Origin: Nitrospirota bacterium
GTDB lineage: Bacteria > Nitrospirota > Thermodesulfovibrionia > Thermodesulfovibrionales > Dissulfurispiraceae
Reading direction: 5' to 3'
DNA length: 64,000 bases
NCBI GenBank assembly: GCA_009773415.1
Contig: WSNO01000004.1
Location: 1-64,000, forward strand
A program made the translations under genes and the position numbers. The notes below the pieces were generated by a model, which saw only the letters and a list, made by a program, of their open reading frames with translations, made no database searches and was not told where the DNA came from. How positions within the stretch are numbered: the first letter of the stretch is position 1; the number at the start of each line of letters is the position of its first letter. Shown in pieces: positions 19,220 through 21,448 of this stretch.

Positions 19220-19537
19220 TTAGGCAAGCGGATAGTCCGCCTCTTTCCACGCCTTCACGCCGCCGTCCAGAACCTTTGCATGCGCGAAACCCTTTTCGCG
19301 ATATTCAGCCGCCACCCTGGCGGCGCCGGCATCCGCAAATCAGGCGCAGTAGAAAATAATCTCCGTGTCTTGCGGGAGCTTTTCCTCCCGGGACTTCAGT
19401 GTCGAAAGCAGGATTGCGCCTTCCAGCAGCATGCCGCGACACTTCTCGTCGTCATCATACGCGCAGACAAGAATCGCGGCGTCGCCCTCGACCTTGATAT
19501 GTGCCTCATGCGGCGATATCTTCTGCGGAATGCTCAT
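19220..19537 (-). CDS. Rhodanese-like protein with predicted selenocysteine at an in-frame TGA
   Basis: 105 residues if the TGA at 19342-19340 is read as selenocysteine. The frame continues without break for 39 codons to a TAA: FADAGAARVAAEYREKGF and LDGGVKAWKEADYPL are the standard second half of a rhodanese domain. The active-site loop reads FYCA-Sec (C64, Sec66), and from family knowledge relatives commonly carry a second cysteine here (YCxC). A GC-rich hairpin 15-32 bases after the TGA has the form of a bacterial SECIS. Start ATG 19537 with GGGAGG 5 bases upstream. Rhodaneses transfer sulfane sulfur; a C-x-Sec pair would suit redox or selenium chemistry. The alternative is a nonsense mutation. 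Confidence 0.75.
19308..19342 (-). promoter_or_regulatory. Predicted bacterial SECIS element with the UGA
   Basis: Minus strand: TGA (19342-19340), 15 bases, stem GCCGCC (19324-19319), loop AGGGT (19318-19314), stem GGCGGC (19313-19308). The loop begins 21 bases after the UGA, with G in its second position. Both fit the known pattern for SelB-binding elements. Confidence 0.6.
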
Positions 19538-19730
19538 GCCGGCCTCCCTTGCCTCTCAACGCCATTCTACCCCTGCGGGGCTGCATCATTAAACGATCTG
19601 CCTTCAATTCTGCTATTATTTGGAAAAGAAGTAAAGACCGGGAGCGCTTCGTCAGGATTTTTTGATGAATGGATGCTGCGCGGGCATCGGGTATCAACAC
19701 GTGAATTCCGTTTACTGAGGATATCAGGCT

Positions 19731-20272: not shown

Positions 20273-20806
20273 CTACGGACAGAGCGCGTCGTGAAGACGG
20301 TGTTCGCGCGTCCCGGCAACAATGGTGTGCCAGCGGGTACGGGCATTCGATTCGGCGCGCAACTCTCCGGTGCTGCCGTAGTCAGCTGACGACATTACGC
20401 GGATGATGCGGTTCGGGCAGTCGACCTCGTAGTGTGCAAGCGTATATTTATAGGTATATTTATAGTCTTCGAAGCCGGGACCAAAAGTTCCGGCCTTCTT
20501 CTGATCGGCAATCCACTGCTCCCGCCCCTCTTCGCTGCGCAGAGCCTTTTTCGTCCAGACGCGGGTGTACTGCGAGGTCGGGTGCTGGATGCTCTGCGGG
20601 TTGAAGGAGTAAACGAAATAGGAATCCCGATGGTAAATCAGCCAGTCGCTGCCGGTCGCTTTATAGGCGATATCGCGGGTGCCGCGCGAGACAGTGTCTG
20701 CCGCGTCCTGCGGGCTGCGGACAATGGCGCAGCCGGGCAGCAGCGTAACGGCAAGGCACATGACGCATATCCGGAAAAGCGCGGTCTTACTCAACCGAGA
20801 CAGCAT
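20273..20806 (-). CDS. Lipoprotein with surface-adhesin E-like domain
   Basis: 177 residues. Signal peptide with lipobox LLPGC (cleavage before C26). The mature part contains YFVYSFNPQSIQ, RVWTKKAL and LAHYEVDCPNRIIRV, which follow the Adhesin_E (PF16747) pattern of small envelope lipoproteins. Role in this organism unknown. Last gene of a four-gene minus-strand run; it overlaps the preceding FlgO-like gene by 20 bp. Confidence 0.7.
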   Translation of the reverse strand: MLSRLSKTALFRICVMCLAVTLLPGCAIVRSPQDAADTVSRGTRDIAYKATGSDWLIYHRDSYFVYSFNPQSIQHPTSQYTRVWTKKALRSEEGREQWIADQKKAGTFGPGFEDYKYTYKYTLAHYEVDCPNRIIRVMSSADYGSTGELRAESNARTRWHTIVAGTREHRLHDALCP

Positions 20807-21410
20807 TGAACAGTCCTCCGCACCCGGCGGTGATTTCCCGGCTCGCCATCTTCGTTACGCGACCGGTCGCAACGTCGACTTTGCGGGCGAAGAGGAAGAG
20901 CTTGTTGCCGGAATAGCTGAATGTGCCGACAATATATTCGGAATATGGATACTCGGGATGGCGGACGCGCTTCGGGTCGCGGCTCATCGCGACAAGCCCC
21001 TTGTCCGAGAGCGTGAAGCTTTCCGAGAACTCAGCCTGAACGATCTTTGCCCTGCATGTGCGGTTGAGGCTGCTCCGCATCAGCTCACCCATGACGATGC
21101 CGTGCTTTTTCGGCTGGAGCGAATGGATGTCGACAAAATCAGTAACGAGAAATGTCGGCGAAGGGCAGGCGGTAACGTTCGGGTTGCCGGTCGGGTTGCA
21201 CGGCTCGCCGCACAGATCGGCAGCCATGCCCTGAAATACCGGCTTCATGTCGACGCGGGAGAGAATTTCCTCGAGGCTGGTCGTGCAGTCAGCGCTGCCC
21301 ATATAGCGCGCGAAGCATCCGCTCAGGACAAACAACAGCCCGAGGAGCAGCACCGCGAGGCTGCGCCGGAGAACGCTGACTGAACATATCTGCAGAAAAG
21401 GCATCTTCAT
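20787..21410 (-). CDS. FlgO-like lipoprotein
   Basis: About 207 residues from the ATG at 21410; a TTG at 21440 would add ten. Signal peptide with lipobox VLSGC. The mature part has TFLVTDFVDIHSLQ, LGRL-like helical text and the strand pair YIVGTFSYSGNKLFLFARKVDVATGRV, which match the FlgO (PF17680) domain. It is presumably anchored to the outer membrane. It sits between a second FlgO-like protein and the adhesin-like lipoprotein. The mature N terminus is rich in cysteine (six before residue 75). Confidence 0.7.
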   Translation of the reverse strand: MKMPFLQICSVSVLRRSLAVLLLGLLFVLSGCFARYMGSADCTTSLEEILSRVDMKPVFQGMAADLCGEPCNPTGNPNVTACPSPTFLVTDFVDIHSLQPKKHGIVMGELMRSSLNRTCRAKIVQAEFSESFTLSDKGLVAMSRDPKRVRHPEYPYSEYIVGTFSYSGNKLFLFARKVDVATGRVTKMASREITAGCGGLFNAVSVE

Positions 21411-21448
21411 CAGTGTATACAATACCCTCTCTTTGTGCAACAGTGAGA

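Follow-up and report, generated by a model that had tools for sequence, protein, structure and literature searches.

Does an in-frame TGA within a bacterial rhodanese gene mark the end of the protein or the insertion of selenocysteine (Sec)? We addressed this question for a locus in a Nitrospirota bacterium (family Dissulfurispiraceae, assembly GCA_009773415.1) by analyzing the first 64,000 nucleotides of contig WSNO01000004.1, hereafter called the window. Its minus strand carries, at 19223..19537, a predicted gene of 105 residues for a rhodanese-like selenoprotein with Sec at position 66. From the open frame, the Pfam match, the sel genes of the genome and comparison with relatives, we consider it highly probable that this gene encodes a rhodanese-fold protein into which Sec is inserted at the UGA codon.

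The TGA codon and its conservation in relatives

The gene starts with an ATG at 19537, which is preceded at a distance of 5 nt by a Shine-Dalgarno-like GGGAGG (19543..19548). The TGA is codon 66 (19340..19342) and is followed by 39 sense codons and a TAA stop codon (19220-19222); all these elements lie on the minus strand. The predicted active-site motif is FY-C64-A-U66, with the TGA two codons past Cys64 (19346..19348, minus strand). This residue aligns with the cysteine in the FYC loop of the solved rhodanese 6mxv, i.e. it occupies the position of the catalytic cysteine, and position 64 is either Cys or TGA in the whole collected family. With the TGA read through, the protein scores 33.6 bits on the Pfam Rhodanese family PF00581, above the gathering cut-off of 22.2, with a match over residues 45-100 that runs across the TGA. 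The first-pass annotation, which had placed an in-frame TGA inside a rhodanese, is thus borne out by a match that spans the codon and a frame that stays open to the TAA; it also had the coordinates, the C-A-U motif and the number of codons after the TGA right, and left out the strand. An AlphaFold2 model of the protein built with 56 family members as input has a predicted local distance difference test score (pLDDT) of 91.8, and the PDB structures that match it best are rhodanese domains, with template modelling (TM) scores of up to 0.79. No signal peptide is evident in the sequence of the window protein. A relative from the same genus (L017/L078) is 71-74% identical over the full length and has the same TGA.

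The genome of the window (2.46 Mb, estimated completeness of 100%) possesses selA (614 bits), located on the same contig as the rhodanese gene, selB (345 bits), and a tRNA-Sec with the anticodon TCA. Because the Rfam model for tRNA-Sec also matches in genomes without the Sec trait, the evidence for the trait rests on the anticodon and on the selA and selB cut-offs. In selD (G000:C59:99593-100507, L174), the codon for the usual Sec of SelD (KAAGUAAK) is itself an in-frame TGA, and the frames of selA and selB are open without any TGA. Inside the order, 153 of the 176 genomes have selA, so its presence alongside the TGA form is uninformative there, and a phylum-wide comparison was used instead. 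Among Nitrospirota outside the order, selA is present in 7 of the 9 genomes with the TGA form and absent in 37 of the 38 genomes with a form that has no TGA. Distant Nitrospirota relatives lacking selA have Cys at the Sec site.

More than 60 close relatives were identified by scanning a genome collection, both in metagenome-assembled genomes and in isolates, with record titles naming Nitrospirae, Deltaproteobacteria, Planctomycetota, Synergistales, Acidobacteria and Rokuibacteriota. The scan patterns left codon 66 out; one of the two patterns fixed codon 64 as Cys, so the ratio of Cys64 to Sec64 is biased towards Cys. The window protein belongs to a clade, named VCAY after its sequence signature, that comprises 66 rows and has a support of 99 in the SH-like approximate likelihood ratio test (SH-aLRT) in a quick tree of few columns, from which we quote only this support and a minimum number of C/U changes given below. 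Codon 66 is TGA in 65 clade members and Cys in one (L121). A pattern-free parse of 76 scan loci found TGA or Cys at this site in every readable clade member. The scan and whole-genome searches together yielded 124 TGA genes and 35 Cys genes, in a set whose collecting pattern allowed Cys or TGA alone at codon 66. A search of plasmids gave one distant match. Most selenoprotein families include many Cys versions, thus the near-complete retention of Sec in the VCAY clade is unusual.

A covarying hairpin downstream of the TGA

By published rules, the bacterial Sec insertion sequence (bSECIS) is a hairpin with its loop 16-37 nt after the UGA, a G in the first two loop positions, a stem of 4-16 bp, and a free energy of at most -7.5 kcal/mol (PMC13188914). 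Two overlapping hairpins on the minus strand of the window gene follow these rules. One of them, GCCGCC-AGGGU-GGCGGC (19308..19324), is supported by folding and covariation and has the register that is conserved in the family; its loop stands 21 (21-22) nt past the TGA, and at about -12 kcal/mol it is a minority in the predicted ensemble. The other, shifted hairpin (19308..19330, loop GCCAG 18 nt after the TGA) is thermodynamically preferred, with -15.3 kcal/mol and a probability of about 0.85 in the ensemble. Either register could be the one used by SelB in this gene. Scanned with Rfam at gathering thresholds, the window yielded two tRNAs and nothing else.

The case for the hairpin is convincing because of the comparison with relatives, not because of the single-sequence z-score. 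The first-collected 63 clade sequences align without gaps downstream of the TGA and share a consensus hairpin with a stem of 5-7 bp, the loop of which lies 21 nt after the TGA and is supplied by codon +8. The middle base of this codon is G in all 124 TGA genes, and the form NG(T/G) is found in 123 of the 124 (GGT, CGT, AGT, CGG, AGG and TGG, encoding Gly, Arg, Ser or Trp; the exception is a single CGC), compared with 14 of the 35 Cys genes (Fisher p=5.5e-16), which also allow Phe, Gln, Met, Leu and Lys here. Within the clade, Gly at codon +8 is always encoded by GGT (45/45), whereas in the rest of these genes GGT accounts for 18% of the Gly codons. A stem pair that is largely free of coding constraint joins the third bases of codons +6 and +10. 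This pair is T-A in 38 clade members and C-G in 18, with 3 cases of T-G or C-A (Fisher p=5e-12), and the LYCxU sister group shows the same covariation (p=9e-9); these p-values overstate independence as the sequences are related, and the sister group repeats the pattern. The proposed helix is 85.5% paired; the maximum is 54% when the helix is slid and 78.5% in shuffles. It exceeds all 500 shuffles in the percentage of cells paired, in cells with changes on both sides and in the covariation score, and every slid version in cells paired and covariation score. Finally, 52 of the 63 clade genes pass the bSECIS rules at -7.5 kcal/mol, while 15 would be expected from synonymous recoding.

Several observations weigh against Sec insertion or against the role proposed below. 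The hairpin of the window gene taken alone is only marginally better than chance (z -1.83; synonymous-recoding p about 0.05), and its best fold is not that of the family register. The hairpins of the sister group are weaker, with 13 of 47 passing -7.5 kcal/mol. No selA was detected in three genomes with the TGA form, G194 and G246 outside the order and G086 inside it, each of which is a fragmented assembly of 260-430 contigs. Nor do the surroundings of the gene hint at a substrate: in a neighbourhood clustering over the clade, no gene family recurred beside the rhodanese beyond groups of 3-4 loci. The marginal single-sequence hairpin would fit an ordinary stop codon, in a truncated or decaying rhodanese, or a sequencing error. 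However, the TGA stands at the same codon in clade members of several phyla and is replaced by Cys in the exception, the protein is conserved on both sides of it, and the third positions downstream covary, which leaves this explanation very little probability. Even less credible is a UGA read as Trp, Gly or Cys through a genome-wide change of the code or a suppressor: the frame would be just as open whatever residue the codon encodes, but the genome has selA, selB, tRNA-Sec and a selD with TGA at its usual Sec site, the selA and selB frames contain no TGA, and the relatives without TGA have Cys at site 66.

Sec insertion, which the first-pass annotation had proposed, is therefore the reading supported by the sel genes, the Cys/Sec exchange and the covarying SECIS in relatives. 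The annotation had also described a hairpin with a G in its loop at SECIS distance, in agreement with the two overlapping hairpins described above, and had suggested, among others, three checks: a search for sel genes, which recovered selA, selB, selC (tRNA-Sec) and selD; an alignment of homologs, which revealed TGA or Cys at codon 66; and a look at the hairpin in relatives, where the stem downstream of the TGA covaries. The selenium or redox rhodanese that it had in mind is a putative function.

The VCAY clade and predicted double-Sec members

Rhodanese selenoproteins with a C-x-U motif are known from prediction as 'form 3' (PMC9312934, PMC13188914). Judged by sequence, the VCAY clade is a separate, widespread and well-supported clade of this already known kind of selenoprotein. 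The window protein contains the C-x-U/C motif of the NCBIfam equivalog NF041203 (rhodanese_LYCAU) and gives a local match of 52.9 bits, below the cut-off of 115; for other clade members, whose scores were read individually, the values are 53-69 bits. Among LYCxU members, three long proteins with a hydrophobic N-terminus score 159-170 bits and two short ones 110-114. Since the scores fall below the cut-off, we filed the window protein in a sister clade outside NF041203. Form 3, for which the accession TKB26178.1 is cited, may nevertheless comprise members of this clade.

The VCAY clade is marked by the sequence LVCAYDD(D/E)EK where other rhodaneses have D-V-R. Its Cys25 (19463..19465, minus strand), located near the position of the Asp of that motif in the others, is invariant in the 56 aligned clade members, while the LYCxU sister group has DVR. 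Glu59, Phe62, Cys/Sec64 and Sec/Cys66 are also invariant. The clade thus shares with form 3 and NF041203 the rhodanese domain, the C-x-U motif with Sec two residues after the catalytic-position Cys, and the register of the hairpin, and differs in the V-C-A-Y signature, Cys25, the mostly absent evident signal peptide, and Sec in all members but one. The single-domain thiosulfate sulfurtransferase GlpE of E. coli (1gmx) has the same fold and catalytic Cys position; however, it has no Sec, and the window protein scores 17.7 against the NF001195 cut-off of 102. The selenoprotein TsoB, resembling a rhodanese/DsbD fusion (NF045694, UxxxxU), is likewise a rhodanese with Sec and has two Sec residues (PMC13188914), but it is far larger and has another motif (12.4 for the window protein against a cut-off of 805). 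The C-x-C rhodaneses of Nitrospirota and Proteobacteria have a related loop and differ in having Cys at the Sec site, a codon +8 without SECIS constraint, and, in Nitrospirota, hosts without selA.

Of the 124 TGA genes, 17 carry another TGA at codon 64 (L018, L019, L109, L221, L223, L022, L023, L027, L029, L032, L040, L154, L156, L157, L218, L219 and L220), giving the motifs UAU, UTU, USU, UGU or UVU. These U-x-U genes, to which the window gene does not belong, occur in both the VCAY and LYCxU groups and are scattered over the poorly resolved tree, with at least 11 C/U changes. In these genes, 27 nt separate the first UGA from the loop, a distance that the 16-37 nt rule still allows, and a single SECIS could therefore be enough for both UGA codons. 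A 2026 review gives form 3 one Sec only (PMC13188914), and we found no report of a U-x-U rhodanese in the open-licence papers searched. Tentatively, the VCAY clade may represent an essentially Sec-obligate sulfurtransferase or reductase family with an active site of Cys25, Cys64 and Sec66, in which, as in LYCxU, a single SECIS decodes both UGA codons of the U-x-U genes, which stand just one codon apart. If so, both active-site chalcogens of the U-x-U members would be selenium. The U-x-U relatives would also put to the test whether a single SECIS is enough for two UGA codons so near each other.

One double-Sec clade member (L109:1828-2628, plus strand) is fused to a domain of the YHS (seleno)protein type (NF041384, 151.9 bits), and L019 too appears to be a fusion. 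Pairs of rhodanese selenoprotein genes that lie near each other on one strand occur at L124 (4796 and 5174) and at L177 and L178.

Possible function and neighbouring genes

We lean slightly towards a role of the window protein in sulfur or selenium transfer or in persulfide reduction. SelB and Sec-tRNA would read the UGA as Sec66, and Cys64 in the catalytic position would take up a sulfane sulfur as a persulfide. Sec66, located where the next helix begins, could then attack this persulfide or form a selenenylsulfide with Cys64, thereby speeding up the release of the sulfur or its transfer to an acceptor, and thiols would recycle the enzyme. Cys25, with which a predicted strand ends, may be a third group with a resolving or relay function. 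The protein would thus act in the cytoplasm, either transferring sulfur (or selenium) or reducing persulfides.

It is also quite conceivable, if a weaker candidate in our judgement, that this selenoprotein uses the rhodanese scaffold for another purpose, as a thiol-disulfide or peroxide oxidoreductase or as a binder of metals or oxyanions. Glu at Sec+3 in 53 of the 63 clade members, the invariant Cys25 in place of the D-V-R Asp, two to three chalcogen groups that look redox-active, and the fusion of some members to a YHS (seleno)protein domain would be in line with such a role, whereas the retained catalytic Cys position and rhodanese fold speak for sulfur transfer. The near-obligate Sec of the clade offers a direct test of the contribution of selenium to rhodanese chemistry.

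Standard annotation would stop the gene at the TGA, and NF041203 misses the clade. Databases thus probably list this selenoprotein of several phyla as truncated pieces of a rhodanese, if they list it at all.

Three neighbours of the rhodanese gene in the window are also on the minus strand. Those at 20276-20806 and 20790-21440 match families of surface-adhesin protein E and FlgO, while the one at 18112-19059 matches the Gate (nucleoside recognition) domain. Elsewhere, a different rhodanese (L037, G003:C102:5338-5508) has two in-frame TGA codons and a loop Y-U-G-G-x-x-U where C-G-G-x-x-C would be expected.
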